DNA of 37,817 bases, taken from contig JAKADQ010000004.1 of the NCBI GenBank assembly GCA_021820405.1, positions 1 through 37,817 of the forward strand. Reading direction: 5' to 3'. This stretch comes from Thermoplasmata archaeon (GTDB taxonomy: Archaea > Thermoplasmatota > Thermoplasmata > Thermoplasmatales > Thermoplasmataceae). A program made the translations under genes and the position numbers. The notes beneath the pieces are model-generated. The model saw only the letters and a list, made by a program, of their open reading frames with translations. It ran no database searches and had not been told where the DNA came from. Position 1 is the stretch's first letter. Each line of letters begins with the position of its first letter. This document shows, piece by piece, positions 5,205-28,437 of the stretch.

Positions 5205-6149
5205 TCAGATCTGTTCCCAGAGATTATCGTTCAGGGACCTGCACAGGGTAACTATGACGTTTTTTGGATCATTTTTCCTCGCAACTGAGAAAAGAACTGC
5301 AAGATACTCATCCAGCATTGTTGACGGTATGAAGGCTGTGATCGCAAGATGATGGCCATCCACCCTGACAAAAAGGGCTACTCGCGGGATCTTTCTCTCA
5401 TTGCTCAGTTTCCTGATCTCGAATAAAGTGGGATTTCCAAGCACAGCTTGATATATGTGCTCCTCCTTTGATATCTGAGTAAAACCTTTACCAGAAATAC
5501 CAACCAGATCCTGCCCAGAGTAGACTACCCCGAGGAATGTTTCATAGGAGTCGGTTGCACTTTTTACCTCTATAAGAAGATTTTTTTCGTCTTTGACTTC
5601 AAAGGGCAGATCCTCGTCAGAGGATATTGGAACGCGATAACCGACCACTGTTAATGGCATCATTGATGAAATAGATTTTATACTGTCGATAAAGCCCATT
5701 GCAGGCCCGAGATCAAGAATCTTGGTGGTGCTTTGGTTCTTTGTATACTGTGACAAAAGATCAGATATCTCATCAAGATAATTGTCATGGAACGCAAACC
5801 TGAACTGGAGTGCCCCTGCGGCTACGAATATACCTGATATGACAACTGAGTTCACGGAAACCAGTTTATCGATTATCTTCATTTCTCCAATGTGATTGAT
5901 TCTCTCGTCGATGATGTAGCACTCGCTTTTTTCAACCGCCCTCAGAACCGGCAAGAATGAGCTTATTGCATTGATGTTTGGAGTTTTTTTGCTAACGTAG
6001 GTGCGCAGGTAGGTCTTGTCTTCCTGCATATATAAGAAGGCCGGGAAAATACTCTCTAACTTTGAAAGATACCTGAATGAGGTTGCTTCTTGTGTAAGAG
6101 ACAGCTTGCATGAAAGACCTAATTTATGGTCAACTTCCCGTATTAGCAC
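5205..6149 (-). CDS. Hypothetical protein, member C of the paralog family
   Basis: ISKEEHIYQAVLGNPTLFEIRKLSNERKIPRVALFVRVDGHHLAITAFIP aligns with 1736-2668 and 11806-12744; AT-rich promoter-like sequence just upstream (6150-6190). Confidence 0.8.
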   Translation of the reverse strand: MLIREVDHKLGLSCKLSLTQEATSFRYLSKLESIFPAFLYMQEDKTYLRTYVSKKTPNINAISSFLPVLRAVEKSECYIIDERINHIGEMKIIDKLVSVNSVVISGIFVAAGALQFRFAFHDNYLDEISDLLSQYTKNQSTTKILDLGPAMGFIDSIKSISSMMPLTVVGYRVPISSDEDLPFEVKDEKNLLIEVKSATDSYETFLGVVYSGQDLVGISGKGFTQISKEEHIYQAVLGNPTLFEIRKLSNERKIPRVALFVRVDGHHLAITAFIPSTMLDEYLAVLFSVARKNDPKNVIVTLCRSLNDNLWEQI

Positions 6150-10250: not shown

Positions 10251-11213
10251 TCATGTATCGCCTTGTGAACTGCCATATTCAATGTAAGGATTATTATACG
10301 AGCCCCCGCGGTACGCAACCCAGTGATGGGGATTTATCTTCCTGAACCCTTCCTCTATCTCGTCGACCTCAGCGAAGTTTGCCGCATGCATTATGAAAAA
10401 CGAAAATTTGGAAAGGTTCTTGTAAAGCAGCATTCTGTTCTCAAGAAATTTATCCTGAAAGATGCGTGGGAGATACCTTTCGTACTGAGAAAGCATTATA
10501 ATATACACAATTAGCACACCTGTGGCCTTGTCAGCGTTAAACGACACCTCTTGGTAAATGACTCCATTATGGATCAGGTTATCCACCTTTCTTCTTAAAG
10601 TCCGCAACGGTATGGAGAGATCTTCTGAAAGTTTCGTCAGGTTCGCTTTTAGAGGATCTTGTCGCAACAGCCCGTTAACGATCGATAATTCCAACCTGCT
10701 TATTGAGTCGCTTTTCCTTGTAGTGCTTTTCATGATTTCGATTATGTTCTCGTCTTGCTTCATGCAATTGGGGAGAAGTTTCATTTTCCTTTTCAGATCA
10801 TCATCGTTGAAAGCGATCACCGACACAATACCAAAGTCTTTTTCAGTTACCTCGATCTTCCCGGAATCACCATAAACTTTGGAACGCAATGTTCCTACTA
10901 TGACTCTTTCAACAAAAGGCAGAGACTCAAAATCGTTGACTACCGCAACCGTAATTTCCTTGGACTGATTCATAAGAATGTGATAGCGCACCCACGGCAT
11001 GAACCTGTCATTTGCGTAAAACTTGATTGCATTTATGAACCCGGAATCGAATAACTCGCTCAACCTGTTCCTTACAACCTGGGGATGGATATGCAATTCC
11101 TTGGCTATCCTGTATACACACGGCCTGTTTGAAAATCTGTCAAGGCCATCCATAGGCCACTGGAATTTTTTGATGATGTCTCTTGATATCCTGTCGAACA
11201 TGACAACTGACAT
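10251..11213 (-). CDS. Transcriptional regulator with two HTH segments (Lrp/AsnC-like architecture)
   Basis: HTH-like CVYRIAKELHIHPQVVRNRLSELFDSGFINAIKF and a second LTKLSEDLSIPLRTLRRKVDNLIHNGVIYQEVSF. Confidence 0.7.
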   Translation of the reverse strand: MSVVMFDRISRDIIKKFQWPMDGLDRFSNRPCVYRIAKELHIHPQVVRNRLSELFDSGFINAIKFYANDRFMPWVRYHILMNQSKEITVAVVNDFESLPFVERVIVGTLRSKVYGDSGKIEVTEKDFGIVSVIAFNDDDLKRKMKLLPNCMKQDENIIEIMKSTTRKSDSISRLELSIVNGLLRQDPLKANLTKLSEDLSIPLRTLRRKVDNLIHNGVIYQEVSFNADKATGVLIVYIIMLSQYERYLPRIFQDKFLENRMLLYKNLSKFSFFIMHAANFAEVDEIEEGFRKINPHHWVAYRGGSYNNPYIEYGSSQGDT

Positions 11214-11429
11214 ACAGCAACGAAGAATCTAAAAACTTTATGCTTATATGTATAGCGAATGCTAAAATTATAAACCCTTTGTGGTGTATATATCCAACAT
11301 TCAAAAAAGAAATGTCCAGGAATATTGAGAGATGATAGTCTGGAAATGAGCCATTGATAGACCTGTACCAAAGTATGCCACAAATAATGCAAATGGGCTT
11401 TATGATTTTTGGTGGGATGAATGGAACCT

Positions 11430-11800
11430 TTAATCCGCGAAGATGCCATTACCTTTCAGGTAGAGCCCTCCACGGACAGCGGTCTTTACAGTGGTCTTCT
11501 CTTCCAGGATTGTGGATGCAGTCCTCATTTCATCCGCCCTGATCCTGATCATCAGGCAATCTCCCCTGTTTCTTGGATTGAACTGGAATAGAATTCCCCT
11601 CACCTCTGCGCAGCCCACGTACATATCAAGAGATCGATGTGCGAATCTCTCCCTGACAGATGGAAATCCAGAGAGATTGTGTCAGCCTCCTTCTCCAGGA
11701 TGGGAATTACAGAATGCTGCTGATCCACCGATATTGTTACCCTGATGTCAAGAACCCTCTTAATATCGCGATATGGGATTTTAGGTCACTTCCCTTGTTC
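11430..11800 (-). pseudogene. Frameshifted hypothetical gene
   Basis: Coding-like IKRVLDIRVTISVDQQHSVIPILEKEADTISLDFHLSGRDSHIDL continues in another frame as MYVGCAEVRGILFQFNPRNRGDCLMIRIRADEMRTASTILEEKTTVKTAVRGGLYLKGNGIFAD*. Confidence 0.45.
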
Positions 11801-11805
11801 ACGGG

Positions 11806-12744
11806 TCATATCCATTCCCAAACCTCGTCATCCAGTTCAGAATAATATTCCAGGAGCGGATGCGATCCATGATCTGACATCAGCGTATTCATCATTATCG
11901 AAACATATTCGTCAGCTTCTGCTGCGGGAACGAATGTGGTATCGAATAATCTTCCATTCTCTATAGTAAGGAAGAACGCTATCCTGGGAATTCTTGCCTC
12001 ATTTCCTCTTTTCCTGCCCTCAACAAGAGACTTTTCATATACATATGATTCGTATACATTGTCCGCGATGGATATCGGTGTGACGCCTTCGGCAACAACA
12101 GGTTTCGATGTATATAGAAGAACCTTTATCCCTTCATCGGTAACCGCTCTTCCCTCTACCTCTGCAACCGCATCGAGGTGGTTATCAGCCATGTATTTCA
12201 TCAACTTGCTGTCATCCGGGAAATTCATGGAATAACGCACAACCGCAAGCGGTGTCTGTCTATGCATTGAATCCATTCTCTCCCTGAGGGAACGGGAGTG
12301 TGTGAGATTGACTATCCTGAAATTTTGGTTCTTTCCAATCACTCCAGAAAGAATGTCATTGATCTCATGGAGCTTGCTTCTGTGGAACCTGAAATCAAGG
12401 TAGAGTTCGTCCCTGAGCAGATATGCATCATTTAGCGCAATCGATGGTGCTTCCAGAAGATTGCTTATTATCTTCATCCCCTCAACGTTGTTGATCCTTT
12501 CTGTTATCGAATAATAGGATCTCTTCTCCACCATGCCTTTCCTTGAGAGGATGGGATTCATGGACGGTGCAGGCTTACCGGATTTTTGAAAGAAAAGCTG
12601 AATGTATGTCTTATCCTCCTCAGCGAATGTGTATGCAGGTATCCTCTGATCCATCCTTGCAATCAACTCAAATATGCCAGTGTGTTGCTTGACTGCAATC
12701 ACGCATCTTCTATCCAGTTTTGCGTTGATTTCACTTATCTTCAT
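11806..12744 (-). CDS. Hypothetical protein, member D of the paralog family
   Basis: ISIADNVYESYVYEKSLVEGRKRGNEARIPRIAFFLTIENGRLFDTTFVPAAEADEY aligns with members A and C. Confidence 0.8.
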   Translation of the reverse strand: MKISEINAKLDRRCVIAVKQHTGIFELIARMDQRIPAYTFAEEDKTYIQLFFQKSGKPAPSMNPILSRKGMVEKRSYYSITERINNVEGMKIISNLLEAPSIALNDAYLLRDELYLDFRFHRSKLHEINDILSGVIGKNQNFRIVNLTHSRSLRERMDSMHRQTPLAVVRYSMNFPDDSKLMKYMADNHLDAVAEVEGRAVTDEGIKVLLYTSKPVVAEGVTPISIADNVYESYVYEKSLVEGRKRGNEARIPRIAFFLTIENGRLFDTTFVPAAEADEYVSIMMNTLMSDHGSHPLLEYYSELDDEVWEWI

Positions 12745-12784: not shown

Positions 12785-13326
12785 TCATCCCTTCAACCTG
12801 TCAATAAGCGTGCTGACTTCCTTCCTTGTCAATTCGGATAAATCCGTTTTCTTCAGTTCCTTCATGTATCGCGAGGTGATGTCCATCCTCTTATCTGTCC
12901 CCTAAAGGTTCTTTATGAATTGCAACTGCTTACTTGTCGCCGGAGAACCCGAGGGATCTCCGGGCCAACTCCCTTCATTCCAGCAAGGATGTCTATCAAC
13001 TCCGAAGCTTCGTGCATGGAAAGCGCGTTGATGGAGTATTTCCTGCTCTCGCTAAGGTATTTCTTAGCTGCGTCCTTTCGTTCATCTGAATCCTGCAGCC
13101 TCGCGAGGAAGGTTATCTGCTTTCCCGTTGCGAATACCTCTTCCCAAGGAGTTTCCCCATCGGACCCAAGAATCTTCACATTCTTCATCTTGTCGATCAG
13201 CGCGGATGCATCGGACTTTCCCTTTTCCTTCAGGGATCTCTGGGATATCTCATCCCTCTCATGAGATGCATTCCTCAACTTGCGTGTGAAGGATAACTGG
13301 CTCTGTGTTGCCTGCCGATCAGTCAT
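12785..13326 (-). pseudogene. Protein of three tandem 'ATxxQ(L/I)xFxxxL...EASxLID' helical modules, third module disrupted
   Basis: Intact 137-aa ORF (12913-13326) carries two modules; the third (ATSKQLQFIKNL*GTDKRMDITSRYMKELKKTDLSELTRKEVSTLIDRLKG*) is in another frame and contains TAG at 12902-12904. Confidence 0.6.
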
Positions 13327-13378
13327 TTTGACTCATTGCGAATTTCTATTTTATCTTTTAACAAATTTTCATATGTCC

Positions 13379-13425
13379 AGTCGCAAGGAAGCTCCAATCC
13401 TTCAGGATGGGGGGGAATTGCGACT
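13379..13425. repeat. Nested hairpin upstream of the decayed tnpB
   Basis: Perfect 8-bp inverted repeat AGTCGCAA (13379-13386)/TTGCGACT (13418-13425) enclosing CTCCAATCC-TTCA-GGATGGGGG. Confidence 0.65.
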
Positions 13426-13456
13426 CAATCCTATATTAAATTATCATATCAATATT

Positions 13457-14588
13457 GTGATCAAGACCATTCAAATCAAATTGCTTCCTGATGAGAGACA
13501 GAAAGAAGCGCTTATCGAAACCTTTGCTAGGTTCAATGATGCATGCAATTTTGCTTCCAGAATAGTCTTTGAAAGGAATCCAGATAACAAGATTTTCCTC
13601 CAGAAGATCGTGTACAGCGAGATAAGGGAGAAATTCGGACTTGCGGCACAGCTTGCCATCAGGGCCATAGCAAAGGTTGTTGAAACCTATAAGGCTGATA
13701 AGACATCTTTCCATGGGTTCAGGGATTTTGGTTCCATTGTATATGATCAGAGGACCCTGAGCTTCAAGGGCATGGATCGGGTAAGCATCAGCACTACAAA
13801 TGGAAGGATAAGAATCCCCATAACCATTGAAAAATATTGTGAAACTCCTTTTGAAAGGATCAGGGGTCAGTGTGATCTCGTCAGGAAAAACAAAATGTTC
13901 TATCTTCATGGTTGCCGTTGAAGTTCCAGAAGAACCCGTCTTCAAACCGGAGGACATCATTGGCATTGACATGGGCATCGTGAACATCGCCGTGGATTCC
14001 ACTGAGAAATATTATTCCGGTGATCAGATCAATGAGATCAGGGGGTGTAATGCCGATCTCACTTCCAGGCTACAAACTGTGGGAACCAGATCCGCAAAAT
14101 ACCATTTGAAGAAACTCTCCGGGAAGGAGAGCAGGTTCGCCATGAATACCAACCTTGTGATATCCAAGGAGATTGTTCAGAAAGCCAAAGGCACCTCCTC
14201 TGCGATTACCATTGAAGACCTCAATGGAATTAGGATGAGGATGACCGTTAGGAAAGGCAACAGGTACATCCATAATTCGTGGGCTTTCAACCATCTCAGG
14301 TAGTTTATAGAATACAAGGCAAGGGAAGTTGGCATTCCCGTCATACCCATTGATCCGCATAACACCAACAGGGAATGCCCCAAATGCCATACCATAAGCA
14401 GGAAGAACAGGTCGGAACAATCCGGGTTCAAATGTATTTTCTGCGGTCTTGATGGAGAAGCGGATTTCATCGCATCCCTCAATATCAGGAACATGGGTGC
14501 TGTCAACCATCCTATTGTAACGGGTGCTATTTTTGATCATTCGATCCTCCCAGTTCCAACCTCAGATGCTTTAGCTCGAAGTAACTGA
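13457..14588 (+). pseudogene. tnpB: RNA-guided nuclease TnpB (IS200/IS605 OrfB), one frameshift and one nonsense codon
   Basis: Frame 1 TIQIKLLPDERQKEALIETFARFNDACNFAS...RKNKMFYLH; frame 2 VAVEVPEEPVFKPEDIIGIDMGIVNIAV...TIEDLNGI...* (TAG 14301-14303) ...CPKCHTISRKNRSEQSGFKCIFCGLDGEADFIASLNIRNMG...DALARSN*. Confidence 0.9.
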
Positions 14589-17166: not shown

Positions 17167-18114
17167 TCAAGTTTGTCGAATAAATTTTTCAAATATGGGA
17201 AAATCAAAAATGCCGCGAAGATATGGATTCCAATCGCTGAATTTAGATCTGGAACCTGAAAGGATGGAGAGAAATTCCCGCACGAATATAGAAGGCAGAA
17301 TATACCACATCGTGAATTGCTTGCCGGTAAGTTTTTGAAAACTCCCAACCGTGAGTATTCTGGCTGAATTCATTTCATGAGAAATATACCCTATAAATGG
17401 ATTGGTGGAAGATGCATAATAAAGAGATCCTGGAACAGTTTCTTTTATCCTGCCATTTGGAGCCAGCAGGGCCTTTGTGATATACACACCATCAATGGTA
17501 GTAGATCCATATGGAAGCTTGACGAGTCTTGTCCACGAATCACCAATTGGGTTATTTTCCGGTGTTAATTCTGCTGTCGGCGGCGAATCCGATCTTATCT
17601 CAATTACGGATAAGAGAGTACGTTGATGAGTCTCTTCAAGAACAGATAAAAAGTCAATTGAAGTACCGAAGTATTCAAGCGCTGCATTATTGGATTCGGG
17701 GAGTCTCAGCAGTACTATTTCAGATACTCTCTCTGATTCGACATGGTTGAAAGATATCTCAATTCTGTAGGTTCCTTGATCGATCCAGAAAGCTGACATT
17801 ACAGCTGAGTTGAGCTCGAGTAGCTCCTTGATCATTACGAGGAATCGCAGCGATTTAACAATCTTTCTTCTGATTCTCCAGGTTCCGTTTTTTTCAATTG
17901 CATCGAATCTTTGAAGGAATAACCTGAGGTCCCTTGGCATTTCAGCCCCGCTCTTAAAGAACAGATTTACTTCAGCGTTGTCTCCAATGAGATAAAGACC
18001 AACTTCTGAACTTATCGAGAACCTGTCAGATGCCTGCGATAATTCATCATCAGGAAGAATGGATAGCCTTATTTTCGTATCCAAGGTAGAGAGCTCTTCA
18101 AGCATGATTAGCAA
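17167..18114 (-). CDS. Hypothetical protein, divergent member E of the paralog family
   Basis: PGSLYYASSTNPFIGYISHEMNSARILTVGSFQKLTGKQFTMWYILP and YRIEISFNHVESERVSEIVLL align with members A-D. Confidence 0.75.
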   Translation of the reverse strand: MLIMLEELSTLDTKIRLSILPDDELSQASDRFSISSEVGLYLIGDNAEVNLFFKSGAEMPRDLRLFLQRFDAIEKNGTWRIRRKIVKSLRFLVMIKELLELNSAVMSAFWIDQGTYRIEISFNHVESERVSEIVLLRLPESNNAALEYFGTSIDFLSVLEETHQRTLLSVIEIRSDSPPTAELTPENNPIGDSWTRLVKLPYGSTTIDGVYITKALLAPNGRIKETVPGSLYYASSTNPFIGYISHEMNSARILTVGSFQKLTGKQFTMWYILPSIFVREFLSILSGSRSKFSDWNPYLRGIFDFPIFEKFIRQT

Positions 18115-21300: not shown

Positions 21301-21581
21301 GGATAATGACGGAGAATGTAAAGTCTGCTGAAAAACCAGACATTTGTGGCGCGACTGTTGGTGTAGCTTATGCCGATGATGCGTGTTGGACACCAAGAAA
21401 AGACGCATTCCAGATAGAGATAGGTTTTGTTCAGGGAACTACGGCAGATACATTATATCAGGGGAGATTCAGACTTGGATTCATGCCGCCTGGTTGCACA
21501 CATCTTATTCTATACCTTGTCAATGTTGTAGGAACTGGAATATGTTTATTTAGGGATATTGTGCTGAGGAATGCTGAATGA
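18396..21581 (+). CDS. STAND-like multidomain P-loop NTPase: N-terminal P-loop, hydrophobic segment, coiled coil, second P-loop (nSTAND3-like), helical region, beta-sandwich-like C-terminus
   Basis: Walker A GERYTGKT (aa 31-38) and GISGSGKT (aa 448-455); Walker B-like AIVIDDAFGE (aa 494-503); NTVILTSQ sensor-like; hydrophobic aa ~256-281; coiled coil ~350-410. Confidence 0.8.
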   Translation: MASNNITELQSTENSIFYAIRSSKKKISVVGERYTGKTYLANSLGKLPEFKDYKIIDCQYETDGKFPVESLNETLNRILVAEKIIFFVQDYFMPKKKVPNHKEIPDFTKIKEVIQESTIIRHLVSEKEARTIADVNLRDLLGIFKPGSAEMHRISMIVDAIVDDSKFGKSYFPGIIMEGVEFVKKDQKLRDILSNEIYDSTNNSEFHLRLLEMQAEFKRRRERTDFMLGIFGIEASAMLTAADGILDSIKSALSGIVTPMVSTLLGCGVIGLIAVSTGLMIKSSHKDNSFMLTFTKSKLAWKEMTETKKHLIAYRIEAANQLEPMTSYGIIDEVFSGDAYRNGLLREFKSLVEKDRMLLQQRLEEATSEIMKHIEQIKEMVESHEKRIVSIEDDIRFLKEELDRIKSSYCLPSTITEEAKIRSVFYPTRKAQIGLDLASKGKNLIITGISGSGKTSTAAYIAMILRDKGNVKSICINNDISLNYGMSIFMENSAIVIDDAFGENDITLSHTSQLQRLLDVISRKNTVILTSQSHILTNIRWLYPTFFDYLTSNFNMIEIDPEELDDSYWRGLYENYMNVFSTGSPAEIVQTARSIEPMVTAEIRMPVSYEFFFRNFFRAPKIDNTDVKNLIQNSKNLRKSMAMRYISLEREDRNFVKLVCLFPNMSMNDFKTAYKRFYGEDVSREDVESLRTRNEIFLKDNNSLNIVHSECSEGIWDKIAENVDDVKDLLKPVMKMFEFFETRLQAISCIIQVINKYSSLGSEKIVSDFIMQYIEGSNAHERHLAAYLISEILNSISEERFLNSVLSSLKTDEGLFDAAFLLKSMSRNRKWEKLAVHETESLLSNPDISEQFMNVLKSQIYYSKDLIGRLESGFTGKSFDNHELLQYIEKKPDILYSNKNEKNLLKNSEKWNYIGLKSGKFEKIFLNSYEWIEYTETREDNLGRLYLNLDDLVSSKLLVEGNEYIIEARIMTENVKSAEKPDICGATVGVAYADDACWTPRKDAFQIEIGFVQGTTADTLYQGRFRLGFMPPGCTHLILYLVNVVGTGICLFRDIVLRNAE

Positions 21582-21926
21582 GACCTCAACAGTGAAAGGA
21601 AAACCTATTGTTATGTTGGTTTCGCTCACACCAATACTTTCGCCGATCTTCTTTATCAGCGTGCTAATATCCATGAAATAACGCAGAAGGGTAGCGGCGA
21701 TGAACGGCCTTGCATTTGCAACTACGCCCGCAAATGATAGCATTGCAGTTAGTCGCTCATGTGCATCTTGGACAGAACTGTCAAGAAGTTTATTTATTTC
21801 CGATATCTCCTGCTTAAAATAATCTCTCCAGTCCGTGATGTTAAGAGCTGTCAGCTTCCTTAGCTCCAGATCTCCAGAAATTTTCCATTTTTCTAGAACC
21901 TCCTTAATTATGTTAAGATCATCCAT
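21546..21926 (-). CDS. Hypothetical 126-aa protein, convergent with the STAND gene (36-bp 3' overlap)
   Basis: ORF MDDLNIIKEVLEKWKISGDLELRKL...FTVEVSFSIPQHNIPK. Confidence 0.6.
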   Translation of the reverse strand: MDDLNIIKEVLEKWKISGDLELRKLTALNITDWRDYFKQEISEINKLLDSSVQDAHERLTAMLSFAGVVANARPFIAATLLRYFMDISTLIKKIGESIGVSETNITIGFPFTVEVSFSIPQHNIPK

Positions 21927-22144: not shown

Positions 22145-22176
22145 TTTTTATATGACTTGGTGAATAACCGCTGAAA
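22145..22176 (+). promoter_or_regulatory. Putative archaeal TATA box for the kinase-HD gene
   Basis: catttttatatgac ~25-30 nt upstream of the ATG, compatible with leaderless transcription. Confidence 0.4.
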
Positions 22177-25100
22177 TGGTTTCGAGTAATTCCGATGAAA
22201 TTGTTCTTAATAAAGATATTGAACGCATTCTAAATGCAATCTCCAGAAAAGCAAGGTTAAGCAAAAAAGAAGATCTTTATACTTATGTGTCGAATAATTC
22301 GGACGAGTCTAAAAAGCTCGAGATAAGAAAGAAAATCGTTAAATTGGATGCCTTCCCTGACATTGAGTTCAGGAAAGAGGGAGAAATTCGTCATGGTGGG
22401 GGAGGTGTAATATTCCAAGTGTGGGGAACGGGTATACTTGCTAAAAGGCAATATGCTTTGAAGATCGCCCGCCCATCAAGTTTCGAGAATCTGCTCGATC
22501 CGGACAAACACTCGACAGTCGATGTAAGTGTCTTGAAAACCCAGTTTGATTCGGTTAACCAGGAAGCAATAAATAGTGCATCTCTGTATCATAACAATGT
22601 TCTTACATTGTTCAGTTTATCATCAATCAAACTTTTTTTGGATGATCGAGCGGAATTTAACATTCCAATTTCACTCTATGAGTGGATACCAAAATCCTCG
22701 CCCATTGACACTTACATCTATGAGCACTCTAATAGCCTGAGCGATGTGATTTCTCTTTTTCGACAGGTACTTCGGGGCTTGGAACACATTCACGAGCAGA
22801 ATTTGATCCACTGGGATCTAAAGGCAGATAATTGTCTTGTCGTTTCGAACGAAAACAGTTCTGGACCGCGGGTGAAGATTATTGATGTTGGCAATTCGAG
22901 ACCTCTTTCAAAAGAGATATCAGTATATAATGAAAGAGAAATAGCCTTTACTTCCGGAAATAATCTCCCCGATGATTTTCCTTACGAAATTGACAAAGTA
23001 AAAGACCATAGAGCTTTTGTGGTGCTGGAAAAAAATTATCGAACTCTTGATAGACCATGGCTTGACCTGTATATGTTCGGAAGAATGATGGGGAAAATTC
23101 TGGGTTTTCTAGATTTTCCCTCCGAGAATCCTGAAAAGCATGAGATGAGGACTAAATTCCTGAAAAAAATGACAAAAGACTGGATAGTGAGGGATCCAAG
23201 AACAAAGCGAACACTTGGGATGCTCAAAATAATTTATGGTCGCCTTGTGGCCCCTATCTCACAATATTTTAAGGATCCAAGCATTAAACCTGAAGAAGAC
23301 AACGACCTTAGGTACTATAAAACTGTGCGTTCTTTGTTTGAAGATTTAGGCAAGGCCATTCCAGAATATGGCGCGACGAAAAATATCCCGGAACTCTCTG
23401 CGATTCCTCAAAAAATTATAAGGTTACCGATTTCAGGAAATGTTGAGCATTCTGCAAGGATTAAGTATCTTATAGACTCCCCACCGATGAAGCGTCTCTC
23501 GAATTTTCTCCAACTCAGTCATACATACATGGCCTTCCCCGGAGCCAGACATACACGTTTTGGTCACTCACTTGGGACCATGGGCGTTGTATTCCAATAT
23601 ATTCGCGCGTTATATTCGGATGATGAGTCGCCAGATTTTAGACTTCTGTGCGACGACGAGGACATCCAAGCACTAATATTTGCCTCTGCGGTTCATGACA
23701 TCGGTCATACAGCATTCAGTCATTACCTGGAGGAAATGGACACACTTTTTAGGAAATGCAAACATGAAGATTATGCACAAGCCATACTTCGCCAGGACAA
23801 GAGTCTATACTCAGGTATCGTAATTGATAATGACATGCAGGAAATGAGAAAGATTGCAAGTTTTTGGCTTGGCCTTGATAGTGGTAATGGGAATGCGAAG
23901 TCTAAGAAAGACCAGGTGACTAGATTCCTAACACTCGCTGCAGATATATTGGAAAAAGTGCCCCGCCAGAAGCCTAATACAAATCTTAAGGACCCACTCC
24001 TGAGCAAATCCTACAGCCAATTCTCAAAGATAAGTACATTACACTCAATAATAGATGGGCCTATTGATGCTGACAAACTGGATTATGTCCGTCGTGATTC
24101 TGAGCATGCTGGACTGGAATATGCCAAAAGTATTGATGTGAACAGGTTCCTTCAGTCCTTAACGACAGTTTCTAGTTCTGCCAATCCCTTTGGAGTTGCC
24201 AACAACTCCTATACAGATTTTCTTCCAACGATTTGTGTGCGCCCAAAGGGAATATCGCCTGTTGAAAGCCTGTTGCTGGCCAGATACCAGGTTTACAGTA
24301 CCCTTTATTGGCATAAAACGATGAGAATGGCAACAGTCTTGATTCAATATCTGGCATGGCGATTTATTTATCCCAAGCCAACTCCCACAATAAACCGTGA
24401 GGAAAAGCTCGAAGAAATTAAAAAGAGGCGTTCAACGCTTATTTCAATCATGAGGGAAAATACCGACCACGCTGCACTATTGAAGTTAAGAGAACAACTT
24501 GATGCCGATGGAAATAAATTTGATCACATCTGGGACGCTGTCTTGGCAAGAAAGCGACTTCCTGTGGTGCAGGTTAAATTAAACATGAGAGATTTCTCTA
24601 TTCGGGAAGAAAATCTTGCTTCGCTATTCGCGAGTCATGAATATTTGGTTAAGCATTCTAGTAATGAACTTGATTATTGCGAAAAGAGAGAGAGAATTAT
24701 GGAAAAATTGTGCAATGAAATTCAGAATTTTGTTAGAACTCATTCGAAATCTATCAGAGAAGAGGAACTAAAAATGATTGACGAATCTAGAGTATTTCTA
24801 GATATACCAATAGGATCAAAGGATCAAGTTGACAATTTATGGGTACTTCGCCGTGGGCCCCTTTCTTCAACCGACAATTTTCAAACAAGATTGGACAGTT
24901 TCAAAGACGACGCTGAGAAGAAAATCAATAGTAATAATGAGGTTGGCCGGAATGAAGTTGAGAATTCCTGGCCATCTGATTTCAAAGAAGAATCTCCAAT
25001 GATCTCGGCAATAAGAGATGGATTCGCATTGTGGGGCAGGAAAATGCGTCTATTCTTGGATGTTGAAGTCTTTAATATACTGAATTCTGATCCAAATTTG

Positions 25101-25295
25101 GAGAAAGATATCAACAAAACTGTATATGACGCTCTTGTTCATGCCTATGACGAGGTTTTAAATGTCGATACATCGGAAGTTGAAAATAAAGTGCGCTGGT
25201 TCAAGATATTCAAAGACAGGACCAGGCAGAATGGAAAAGAGACTGCAAGAAATTATAATTCAGAAGATCGTTCGGATCCGTGGTACCGATCGTAA
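22176..25295 (+). CDS. Fusion of eukaryotic-like protein kinase and SAMHD1/dGTPase-like HD phosphohydrolase
   Basis: Kinase: Gly-rich HGGGGVIF, YALKIA (K96), HWDLKADN (aa 212-219), KIIDVGN (aa 234-240). HD: FPGARHTRFGHSLG (H464), HDIGHTAFSH (H507, D508), DADKLDYVRRD (aa 631-641). Confidence 0.88.
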   Translation: MVSSNSDEIVLNKDIERILNAISRKARLSKKEDLYTYVSNNSDESKKLEIRKKIVKLDAFPDIEFRKEGEIRHGGGGVIFQVWGTGILAKRQYALKIARPSSFENLLDPDKHSTVDVSVLKTQFDSVNQEAINSASLYHNNVLTLFSLSSIKLFLDDRAEFNIPISLYEWIPKSSPIDTYIYEHSNSLSDVISLFRQVLRGLEHIHEQNLIHWDLKADNCLVVSNENSSGPRVKIIDVGNSRPLSKEISVYNEREIAFTSGNNLPDDFPYEIDKVKDHRAFVVLEKNYRTLDRPWLDLYMFGRMMGKILGFLDFPSENPEKHEMRTKFLKKMTKDWIVRDPRTKRTLGMLKIIYGRLVAPISQYFKDPSIKPEEDNDLRYYKTVRSLFEDLGKAIPEYGATKNIPELSAIPQKIIRLPISGNVEHSARIKYLIDSPPMKRLSNFLQLSHTYMAFPGARHTRFGHSLGTMGVVFQYIRALYSDDESPDFRLLCDDEDIQALIFASAVHDIGHTAFSHYLEEMDTLFRKCKHEDYAQAILRQDKSLYSGIVIDNDMQEMRKIASFWLGLDSGNGNAKSKKDQVTRFLTLAADILEKVPRQKPNTNLKDPLLSKSYSQFSKISTLHSIIDGPIDADKLDYVRRDSEHAGLEYAKSIDVNRFLQSLTTVSSSANPFGVANNSYTDFLPTICVRPKGISPVESLLLARYQVYSTLYWHKTMRMATVLIQYLAWRFIYPKPTPTINREEKLEEIKKRRSTLISIMRENTDHAALLKLREQLDADGNKFDHIWDAVLARKRLPVVQVKLNMRDFSIREENLASLFASHEYLVKHSSNELDYCEKRERIMEKLCNEIQNFVRTHSKSIREEELKMIDESRVFLDIPIGSKDQVDNLWVLRRGPLSSTDNFQTRLDSFKDDAEKKINSNNEVGRNEVENSWPSDFKEESPMISAIRDGFALWGRKMRLFLDVEVFNILNSDPNLEKDINKTVYDALVHAYDEVLNVDTSEVENKVRWFKIFKDRTRQNGKETARNYNSEDRSDPWYRS

Positions 25296-25485: not shown

Positions 25486-26606
25486 GAGGATTTTCAAAAA
25501 CCCTCACCGAAAAACTTTTTCATGACTTCATGATCAATAATCATGAATCTTTATCACACAGGATTATCTGAGCTCTATAAGGAAGTTGAAGCACTTGGTG
25601 ATCCCTTAACCGGCATCTCAGATCGAATTGATTTCGAAAGGATAAGACCAATGCTTTCAGATCTTTATGGGAACGACACTGAGAAGGGTGGAAGACCAAA
25701 TTATGATCCCATTATAATGGTTAAAATACTCTTACTGCAGCAGTGGTATTCCCTCTCAGATCCGCAGATAGAGAGAGATATCAGGGACAGGATATCATTC
25801 ATGAAGTTTCTCGGATATCCTGAGAAGTTACCGGATCGTAACACAATATGGTATTTCCGTGAGAGATTATCGAAAACAGGAAAGGATCGTATTGTTTTCA
25901 CCGAAATACGAGATCAGATAATGTCTAAGAGGATACGCATCAAGAAAGGTACCATGCAGGATGCTTCATTCATAGAAGAGGATGAGGGAGAATATGGAAA
26001 GCCAAGGGGAGAAGATGCAAATACCCGAAGATCTAAGGATGGTGCATCAGCAACAAAGAATCATGAACATCACTTCGGCTACAAGGCACATACACTTGTC
26101 AATGAGATAAAGATAATCGAGAAGCTTTCAGTAACACCTGCCAATGTGCATGATTCTCAGATAGATCTCAGTCTTCCAGGAATCATATGTTACCGGGACA
26201 AGGGATATTTCGGATCCGAATGCAGTGGAATAAATGGCACAATGGATCGATCCGTAAGGGGACATGCACTGCCTTAGAAGAGTATCCGCCGGAATATCCG
26301 CATATCCCGCATTCGATCCATGGTGGAACATCCCTATGCATTCTTCAAGAGAATGTTCCACTTTGGTCATGTAATGGTCACAACTGTGCAAAGAGTGAGA
26401 GTGAAGACATACTTCACAGCAATATGTTACAACTTAGTAAGGGCAAGATTTCTTGACAGGATAGCGTAAGCCATCTCAATTATTGGAAAATAAGAGAAGA
26501 AAACATAAGGAATACACCATGCTTAACAATTATTCAGGCAAAATTGCTTGATGCCACAAATTACGTGAAAGAATTGAGGTTAAAGTAGAGGTTTTAGGAA
26601 AACCTC
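25486..26606 (+). mobile_element. IS5-like insertion sequence with candidate terminal inverted repeats
   Basis: GAGGATTTTCAAAAACCCTC (25486-25505) and GAGGTTTTAGGAAAACCTC (26588-26606) flank the transposase; each is itself palindromic; no target-site duplication confirmed. Confidence 0.5.
25543..26469 (+). pseudogene. IS5-family-like (DDE) transposase with a single in-frame TAG
   Basis: MNLYHTGLSELYKEVEALGDPL...YDPIIMVKILLLQQWYSLSDPQIERDIRDRISFMKFLGY...; TAG at 26275-26277, then same frame KSIRRNIRISRIRSMVEHPYAFFKRMFHFGHVMVTTVQRVRVKTYFTAICYNLVRARFLDRIA*. Confidence 0.9.
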
Positions 26607-27066
26607 GTTTATATTTGCAGGATCGAAGGGCAAGTTCCGAAGATCTTATTTTGAAAGGTTATGGAAATTTTGTCCTTGTGCTTTCTATAGCAAATCTGAA
26701 GGATCTTCGAGTTTAAGGAAGGATTTCTGTTATGTTGAGCACCACATCCTTTGAGTCTTGCGAAACGCAATCCAGTGATCTTAAGCCTCTGAATGGCAAT
26801 ATTACCTCTTATAGATATCTCTCAATAAGTCAGAAATGTTCAGTATGAAATTTGTAACAGACTTAAAATACGATTCGTCGTAATTGTGCACCCAAATAAT
26901 TTGATTAGTTCTTTGCTTAGATTATAAAATGGTTTGGGAGAGGTTTATTTTGAAAAGTTCTATTTTTTTGGGATGGTGCACAAATAAGAAATTTGTCGTT
27001 AATCTTAATTCTGAGATTATGTTGGGGTAATACTTTAAAACAAGCGAACTGACCAAAATTTTAAGC

Positions 27067-27146
27067 GCCGCGGGAGAGATTCGAACTCCCGATCCACAAG
27101 GGAACCAGATCTCAAGTCTGGCGCCGTACCACTGGGCCACCGCGGC
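27067..27146 (-). tRNA. tRNA-Ser (anticodon UGA)
   Basis: Minus strand GCCGCGG...CCAGA-CTTGAGA-TCTGG...GGGAG-TTCGAAT-CTCTC-CCGCGGC; extended variable region; acceptor stem pairs. Confidence 0.88.
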
Positions 27147-27198
27147 TTTCCTTTTCAATCCTTTAATCTATGTCTCTTCCTCCGCAAGTGCTATTTGT

Positions 27199-27774
27199 TT
27201 AATTTACCTTTTCTGCCTTTTTATCAGAATAATAGAAATCATTAAATTTTTCAAAGATTAACTCGTCCACGAAACCATGTTCCCGAATGAAGGCCTGTTT
27301 GTGAAAACGCCCGCATTCACTGAAACCATTCTTAATCAATGCCTTTGCAGAAGCTTTGTTTGGTTCGAAAACTGACGATGTAAGCTTCCTCATATTCAGG
27401 GTTGCAAAGCAGAATTTCACAGTAAGCGAAATTGCCTCAGTGGCAAATCCCTTTCCCCATTTATCCTGCGACAGGAAGTATCCAATTATTCCTGTGCCAT
27501 TGATCCAGTCGATCTCTCTAACTCCTATTACGCCGACTATCTTCATTCCATCGTTTTCAATTATAGCGAAATGCCTGTCGTTGGAGGATTTTTCGCTTAA
27601 TGATCTGAACCAGTAGATCTCGTCACCCATATACATTATTCTTCCTGGGTTGCGTAAAAAGCGATGTACCTCAGGGTTATTAATTGCGGAAAAAAGGAAC
27701 TCAGTATCTGTTTCGACTAAAACTCCCAATGATACCTTTGAGCCCCCCACGATCAGAGGCCTGTTATCGCTCAT
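27199..27774 (-). CDS. GNAT N-acetyltransferase (RimJ/RimL-like)
   Basis: GIIGYFLSQDKWGKGFATEAISLTVKFCFATLNMRKLTSSVFEPNKASAKALIKNGFSECGRF. Confidence 0.92.
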   Translation of the reverse strand: MSDNRPLIVGGSKVSLGVLVETDTEFLFSAINNPEVHRFLRNPGRIMYMGDEIYWFRSLSEKSSNDRHFAIIENDGMKIVGVIGVREIDWINGTGIIGYFLSQDKWGKGFATEAISLTVKFCFATLNMRKLTSSVFEPNKASAKALIKNGFSECGRFHKQAFIREHGFVDELIFEKFNDFYYSDKKAEKVN

Positions 27775-27795
27775 ATTCTAATTTTAGATATGAAC

Positions 27796-28437
27796 CTATC
27801 TTCTCAATCGTCCGTTTGATCTGATAGACGGTCTGCTCTTGTTGCTCTTGGTCCTGCCGGTTCTTAGACCTCTGCCCTTATACCCTGCAGAGGTAAGACC
27901 ACGATATGTCCTCCCCCTGTTATGCGGTTCTGAAATCCAGGAAACGGTTCCGTTATCCCTGATTTCTGGGGCAGCTCTGTCAACCATTATTATTTCATAA
28001 TATTTGTAAAGACCGTCTTCGCCTACATAATATGAATTCAACACTTCCATGTTTGGATATTTATCAGCAGCTCTCTCCTCTGCGATCCACTGTATACTCT
28101 TTTTAACTGTAAGCTTGCTGTATGCCATTCTTCTTGGTCTGCGGCCTCCCATTATCTTTGGACGATTTCTCCCGCCCCTTCTCACCCTGGATCTTACGAC
28201 CACATAGCCCTCTTTGGCTTTGTATCCAAGAGAACGTGCCCTGTCAAGTCTTGTAGGGTATTCAACCCTGAAGGTGGATGGGCCGTGTCTCCACTCAATC
28301 ATTCTCAGTTTTTGAAGTGGATAAATTTCCGATTCCTTGAGAGATTTCCACCCTTCGCGAATTAATGAATATGTTGATGATCCTGGCATATATTTCATTC
28401 CATCTAGTTTATTCTGTGCAGCGACAGTCCAAGACAA
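27796..28437 (-). CDS. rpl15e: 50S ribosomal protein L15e
   Basis: [42 protein letters not shown]...[35 protein letters not shown]. Confidence 0.97.

Follow-up and report, generated by a model that had tools for sequence, protein, structure and literature searches.

The stretch of DNA that was analysed, hereafter the window, comprises 37,817 nucleotides of a contig from a Thermoplasmata archaeon, and it contains a gene that joins a protein kinase domain to an HD domain on a single chain (Table 1). The preliminary description had proposed an uninterrupted frame of 1039 codons, and both the coordinates and the continuity of this frame were confirmed. It had also assigned a kinase and an HD domain to the product, and both were detected by profile searches (Pfam Pkinase, E = 4.6e-12 over aa 125-249, 46.3 bits against a cut-off of 31.7; Pfam HD, E = 2.7e-5, above its cut-off, with HD_assoc_2 at E = 4.6e-5). 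The residues that it had named (K96, HWDLKADN with D214, DVG, H464, H507-D508 and DADKLDYVRRD) all occur in the product, and they are conserved among its homologues. A chance origin of the two-domain order can be excluded because the same order recurs in 23 other loci, most of which encode proteins with approximately 18-27% identity to the window protein. The AlphaFold2 model, for which a 17-sequence alignment served as input, had a pTM of 0.71 and confident cores with many blocks at 80-92. An AT-rich, TATA-like stretch located 26 nt before the ATG fits separate transcription of the fusion gene and may be its own promoter, giving a leaderless transcript.

Table 1. Features of the fusion gene and of its neighbours, in positions of the window
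Feature	Residues	Position	Strand	Basis
nSTAND3 ATPase, upstream of the fusion	1061 aa	18396..21581	+	Pfam nSTAND3, E = 4.7e-16
AT-rich TATA-like stretch		22145..22154	+	about 26 nt upstream of the ATG; read from sequence
Kinase-HD fusion gene	1039 aa	22176..25295	+	single open frame; Pfam, PDB sequence and fold searches find both domains
Protein kinase domain (K96, E130, HWDLKADN with D214/N219, DVG with D237)	aa 64-313	22365..23114	+	Pfam Pkinase; span of the family kinase profile
Kinase-to-HD linker	aa 337-379	23184..23312	+	AlphaFold2 pLDDT 34-35, very low confidence
SAMHD1/EF1143-like HD dNTPase core (predicted)	aa 405-992	23388..25151	+	VIA-align, Foldseek
R461-x-x-H464 (SAMHD1 R164, H167)		23556..23567	+	invariant in 24/24
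H507-D508 ... H516-x-x-E519 (SAMHD1 H206-D207, H215; H-x-x-E pair)		23694..23732	+	invariant in 24/24
DADKLDYVRRD (SAMHD1 D309, D311, K312, Y315, D319)	aa 631-641	24066..24098	+	alignment
IS-type transposase, 248 nt downstream of the fusion		25543..26277	+	Pfam DUF772, DDE_Tnp_1

The gene upstream of the fusion, on the same strand, encodes the nSTAND3 ATPase and is a second defence-type gene adjoining it. A further P-loop-like motif (GERYTGKT) lies in the N-terminal part of this ATPase, which also has a hydrophobic stretch, and the end of its gene is overlapped by a convergent 126-aa ORF on the minus strand (21546-21926) with no Pfam match. As an obligate partner of the fusion the nSTAND3 protein was rejected, since no homologue lies near the other fusion loci; it is regarded as a neighbour and not as a required partner because no gene is common to the fusion loci and one Rhodoferax copy is a lone insertion. 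On the other side, the transposase shows that the neighbourhood of the fusion is mobile.

Several other features of the window were observed. Proteins of the Ta1207 family (PF19020), a repeated and functionally uncharacterised family of archaea, are scattered through it; two were recognised by profile (11806-12744 and 17167-18114), and two further ORFs (1736-2668 and 5205-6149) have BLAST similarity to the copies of relatives. Two overlapping ORFs at 13280-14303 resemble, on visual inspection, a disrupted TnpB (IS605-type) gene in which the frame changes internally. In relatives, tRNA-Ser directly adjoins the gene that matches 27796-28437 of the window and looks like ribosomal protein L15e, while in the window (27065-28437) a GNAT-like ORF (27199-27774) lies between the two; the opposite flank of tRNA-Ser varies from genome to genome. 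This tRNA was considered as an attachment site and rejected: no repeat of the one motif tried was present in the window, and the left flank differs among the relatives. For these two reasons no defined island was drawn.

The kinase half of the window protein contains the Hanks-type set, with a Gly loop (HGGGG), the VAIK lysine K96, D214, N219 and D237. K96, E130, D214, K216, N219 and D237 are conserved in nearly all of the fusions; in one archaeal copy (L026) the alignment at the VAIK lysine is poor. In 24 of 24 fusions the arginine of the HRD motif, which would precede the catalytic aspartate, is missing, and all of them are non-RD kinases, a feature known from innate-immune receptor kinases in plants and animals. 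The best PADLOC matches of this half were the defence kinases mad6 and PD-T4-6. For the three fusion members scanned the best match was mad6, far below the cut-off of the MAD6 model (NF047741), which the window protein did not reach (18.5 bits against 460). The fusion from a Leptospiraceae genome (L082, 1077-3464) has a dead kinase (HLSLNPDC, QFA) that has lost the catalytic Asp, the Asn and the DFG motif, with its HD set complete, and is in effect a natural pseudokinase version; phosphotransfer therefore cannot be needed in every member. Another fusion (L024, 7713-11138, genome G074) has a Cys-rich N-terminal extension of about 250 aa, possibly a zinc-binding sensor.

To place the HD half, sequence and structure comparisons were performed. 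A PDB search with the window protein sequence returned COG1078-type HD enzymes (2q14 and 2hek) and SAMHD1 at E-values of 4e-17 to 2e-16, and Foldseek on the AlphaFold model, as the preliminary description had proposed, matched the HD core with E = 7e-12. In VIA-align, aa 405-992 matched 3irh, the dGTP/dATP-bound EF1143 of E. faecalis, with a Z of 25.9 over 394 residues (rmsd 3.7 Å), and 5ao1 with a Z of 24.0; the Z values for C. elegans and human SAMHD1 were 24-25, that for the human protein being about 24 with the predicted model. Aquifex and Bacteroides homologues also match this region structurally. Because the match extends over aa 405-992, the HD half constitutes a whole SAMHD1/EF1143-type core, so that the earlier assignment of the domain stands while its proposed extent of aa 415-760 has to be widened. 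No N-terminal SAM domain was matched by Pfam in the window protein, and the kinase occupies the N-terminal part. The curated Dgt-type dGTPase model TIGR01353 stayed below its cut-off (18.9 bits against 152.35), and the PADLOC dGTPase model matched the window fusion with an E-value of only 0.0043. Sequence and model together make a strong case that the HD half is a predicted SAMHD1/EF1143-type dNTPase.

Residues of the 24 fusions were compared with those of 49 stand-alone HD relatives in an alignment to SAMHD1, and positions are given in the numbering of that protein. R164, H167, H206, D207, H215, D309, D311, K312, Y315, D319 and Y374 are found in 24 of 24 fusions; Q149 (3'-OH) and R366 are found in 23 of the 24, and the window protein has both. 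The metal set H...HD...D (H464, H507, D508 and D633) and the residues D631, D633, K634, Y637 and D641 are invariant in all 24, and the set of dNTP-holding residues checked (R164, H215, K312, Y315, D319, R366, Y374 and Q149) is complete in the window protein. Its DADKLDYVRRD segment aligns with mouse SAMHD1 IDVDKWDYFARD. At the position of SAMHD1 D218 all fusions have E, which yields an H-x-x-E pair similar to the catalytic dyad described for CloA (PMC12265719). The HD half is degenerate in none of the 24 fusions, and this asymmetry between an intact HD half and a kinase that can degenerate is partly built in, as the pattern used to search for fusions required the HD motif.

The residues of SAMHD1 allosteric site 1 (D137, Q142 and R145) are variable across the fusions and not conserved; the window protein has D434, K439 and S442 at these positions. 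In contrast, most of the stand-alone relatives that were compared retain D137 and Q142 (41 of 49 and 35 of 49, respectively), with R at the R145 position in 26 of 49. The housekeeping HD enzymes listed from the window's archaeal family all keep D137 and Q142, and they keep R145 as well, except that the stand-alone enzyme of the window genome itself (G000) has H at the R145 position. At the K312 position, the housekeeping enzymes of this family have E and the fusions have K.

The search for the same architecture, also proposed in the preliminary description, showed that the fusion is widespread though sparse and not a one-off. Among the matches listed, 24 members were recovered: the window copy, those of four further genomes of its family, one from a Lokiarchaeote, one on a viral contig (L057, IMG/VR) and those of 17 bacterial loci. 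In the window's archaeal family the full fusion is present in 5 of 77 genomes. The E-values of the fusions extend up to 1e-189 and those of the stand-alone HD enzymes, which occur in nearly every genome of the family, are 1e-66 or weaker, leaving a clean gap between the two. When 389 genomes were drawn evenly from the window's phylum, the fusion appeared in members of this family only, and in two bacterial families sampled at 299 genomes each it was found in the seed genome alone (1/299 and 1/299). Among the matches listed from about 85,000 species genomes, the bacterial fusions were from Verrucomicrobia, Acidobacteria, Actinomycetota, Armatimonadota, Pseudomonadota, Bacillota, Bacteroidota, Spirochaetota and Planctomycetota (Anammoxibacter), and one was from the Lokiarchaeote, an Asgard archaeon. 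Mesophilic homologues include those of Acidobacteriaceae (L067, 9602-12247), Rhodoferax (L071, 9506-12262) and Microbacterium (L066, 1201-3957). Curated plasmids and phages gave domain-level matches and no full-length fusion, and among the matches listed from a viral structure library the giant-virus HD and kinase proteins were separate, with no fusion. A scan of genome contigs with the single window protein as query found nothing; an alignment query was needed.

In the HD-domain tree the fusions do not fall with the stand-alone HD enzymes that the fusion-bearing archaea also encode, and the archaeal fusions are therefore not recent derivatives of their hosts' housekeeping gene. The best match of the window protein outside itself is bacterial (Verrucomicrobial L062, E = 2e-56), and its archaeal cousins follow at about 3e-42 and weaker. 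A single origin of the five archaeal fusions was considered; they did not group in the free tree, though the AU test did not reject one clade (p = 0.089). Repeated transfer is thus suggested, and the HD tree is compatible with one single fusion event at the outset. Horizontal spread between the domains of life is the simplest reading of the data.

All-against-all comparison of the neighbours of the fusion loci found no conserved partner gene. The only genes shared between loci were a DUF5131 gene at two of them, those of a few further isolated pairs, transposases and genes of the archaeal background. In the Rhodoferax carrier the fusion is the sole gene between odhB and lpd, here 2.9 kb apart, and a joined odhB/lpd flank query found these two genes close together in most of 29 Rhodoferax relatives. 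Together, the lone insertion and the lack of a conserved partner bear out the earlier view that the fusion is self-contained.

The preliminary description had asked whether homologues lie solely in housekeeping contexts. Some loci (L071 and L073, for instance) do have mainly housekeeping neighbours, with an Eco57I-type methylase 6 kb from the fusion in L073, but several others adjoin defence or mobile genes, as recognised by profile. PglZ and a PglX-like methyltransferase flank the fusion in L068, with AbiEi beyond; DUF5131 is directly upstream in L140 and, together with a PDC-M41A-like gene, in L067; bSEFIR is directly downstream in L078 (E = 1e-47); an AAA_15/PD-T4-4_A-like ATPase is a neighbour in L063; and Prok-E2 and ThiF genes and an ISL3 transposase are near the fusion in L025. 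Tyrosine recombinases (integrases) are near the fusion in L065 and L070, and IS110, IS630 or DUF772/DDE transposases lie within about 1.3 kb of 4 of the 5 archaeal copies. The contigs of L062, L064, L072 and L082 were too short to show the context. When nearest neighbours were compared, the fusion side (78 proteins, a small sample whose members are not named) matched specific defence models, and the stand-alone HD side (82 proteins) gave, among the matches listed, mainly generic kinases, an AAA activator and SNF2/Dpd helicase-type matches. With 78 against 82 proteins, the apparent enrichment of defence genes near the fusions is suggestive only.

Two loci showed further features. In L026 (5243-11840), the divergent fusion of genome G045 lies beside an IU_nuc_hydro nucleoside hydrolase (E = 1.5e-60), a MinD/ParA-like ATPase and another SAMHD1-like HD protein (480 aa, strongly divergent), which may together form a separate nucleotide-targeting cluster. 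In L025, a 330-aa gene of no known family (10511-11503, minus strand) has a same-strand 8-nt overlap with the start of the G004 fusion and was not seen at other fusion loci.

Patchy distribution and defence or mobile neighbours fit both a putative defence role, which is likely on this evidence, and regulation by the kinase. Control of the HD half in cis is plausible, with the HD half as the putative effector and the kinase as its controller. The reading that we favour, with roughly even confidence, is a dNTP triphosphohydrolase gated by a kinase within the same protein, which has spread horizontally and most likely serves in defence against viruses or mobile elements. The core at aa 405-992 would hydrolyse dNTPs to deoxynucleoside and triphosphate, as EF1143 and SAMHD1 do, and the N-terminal non-RD kinase would replace the nucleotide-sensing control of the stand-alone relatives. 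The loss of the allosteric residues and the gain of a kinase suggest that the switch has moved to phosphorylation or to kinase conformation. An infection cue (a viral protein, an altered nucleotide pool or the loss of a host factor) would change the state of the kinase, which would autophosphorylate or phosphorylate the HD half and turn the dNTPase on; dNTPs would then drop and viral DNA replication would halt. We lean modestly towards phosphorylation turning the enzyme on rather than off, because a resting enzyme held off by constant phosphorylation seems riskier.

The fusion might instead be a housekeeping regulator of the dNTP pool, in which the kinase senses ATP or stress and dNTPs are trimmed in normal physiology and not in immunity. 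HD enzymes of the COG1078 type are widespread and probably have metabolic roles, and nearly every genome of the window's family has a stand-alone one. However, these genomes are thus already supplied, whereas the fusion is patchy, has no fixed neighbours and adjoins defence or mobile genes in several loci, and we consider this role unlikely. The same standing is given to the idea that the kinase is itself the effector or acts on other proteins, in effect two attacks at once, or is a mere ATP or ligand sensor without phosphotransfer. Kinases such as Stk2 and PD-T4-6 act alone as defence proteins, and the Leptospiraceae member retains its HD half with a dead kinase, but nearly all other members retain the catalytic kinase residues, and the HD half is degenerate in none of a set whose search pattern required it.

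Slightly less probable again is a kinase/hydrolase signalling switch in which dNTPs are not depleted and the HD half hydrolyses, for example, a nucleotide second messenger, a phage-modified nucleotide or a protein phosphate. HD folds hydrolyse many phosphoesters, and the HD superfamily includes enzymes with other substrates. Position 375 is W in every fusion and Q in SAMHD1, and 15 of the 24 have Q or Y at the H210 position, so that base choice or catalysis may differ. Against this, the fusions retain those deoxyribose- and triphosphate-holding SAMHD1 residues that were checked, and a dNTPase with dGTP and dATP bound gives the best fold match. Selfish cargo or an addiction gene of mobile elements, harming competitors or hosts that lack control, is improbable: IS and integrase neighbours, the viral contig and the lone insertion would suit it, but there is no conserved antitoxin-like partner and control seems built in.

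Returning to the kinase-gated defence dNTPase, the proposal was compared with known systems. EF1143 and other COG1078-type HD dNTPases (3irh, 4lrl, 2o6i, 2hek and 2q14) resemble the fusion in core fold and catalytic residues and, unlike it, have no kinase. Among the Hanks-type defence kinases, which the N-terminal half resembles (MAD6 of MADS, PD-T4-6, Stk2, MkoA and PglW), we know of none with an attached HD dNTPase. PADLOC-DB (2023) and NCBIfam recognised only the single domains of the fusion and no such system, and in the openly accessible literature antiphage dGTPases and Clover were found, and no kinase-fused dNTPase.

Clover consists of the dGTPase CloA and CloB (PMC12265719). Like the antiphage dGTPases, it shares with the fusion an HD-superfamily dNTPase, predicted in our case, and the H-x-x-E pair, and in these systems the enzyme is the defence effector. 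The fusion differs in that Clover is controlled by nucleotide signals from a second protein, without a kinase, and the HD half scores weakly with dGTPase models. No CloB nucleotidyltransferase was common to the fusion loci or found by Pfam among the window neighbours. A dangerous dNTPase has to be restrained until infection, which Clover achieves with nucleotide signals; in the fusion, evolution seems to have built a kinase switch into the enzyme chain itself and to have given up the residues that sense nucleotides. Judged from sequence, dNTP-depleting defence would be of a known kind, and the built-in kinase a new form of control.

SAMHD1 is a vertebrate antiviral dNTPase that is controlled by phosphorylation, and dNTP depletion is an antiviral strategy common to animals and bacteria. 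The fusion resembles SAMHD1 in its catalytic core fold (Z of about 24) and substrate-site residues, and differs from it in having no SAM domain, in carrying the kinase on the same chain and in not conserving the GTP-site residues D137, Q142 and R145. With somewhat less than even confidence, we propose that it is an undescribed, cross-domain, one-gene immune system in which a SAMHD1-type dNTPase is switched by a built-in kinase in place of nucleotide allostery, a prokaryotic counterpart of phosphorylation-controlled SAMHD1. Such a one-gene system would be easily moved and tested, and would offer a natural parallel, found even in an Asgard archaeon, to the control of SAMHD1 by phosphorylation.
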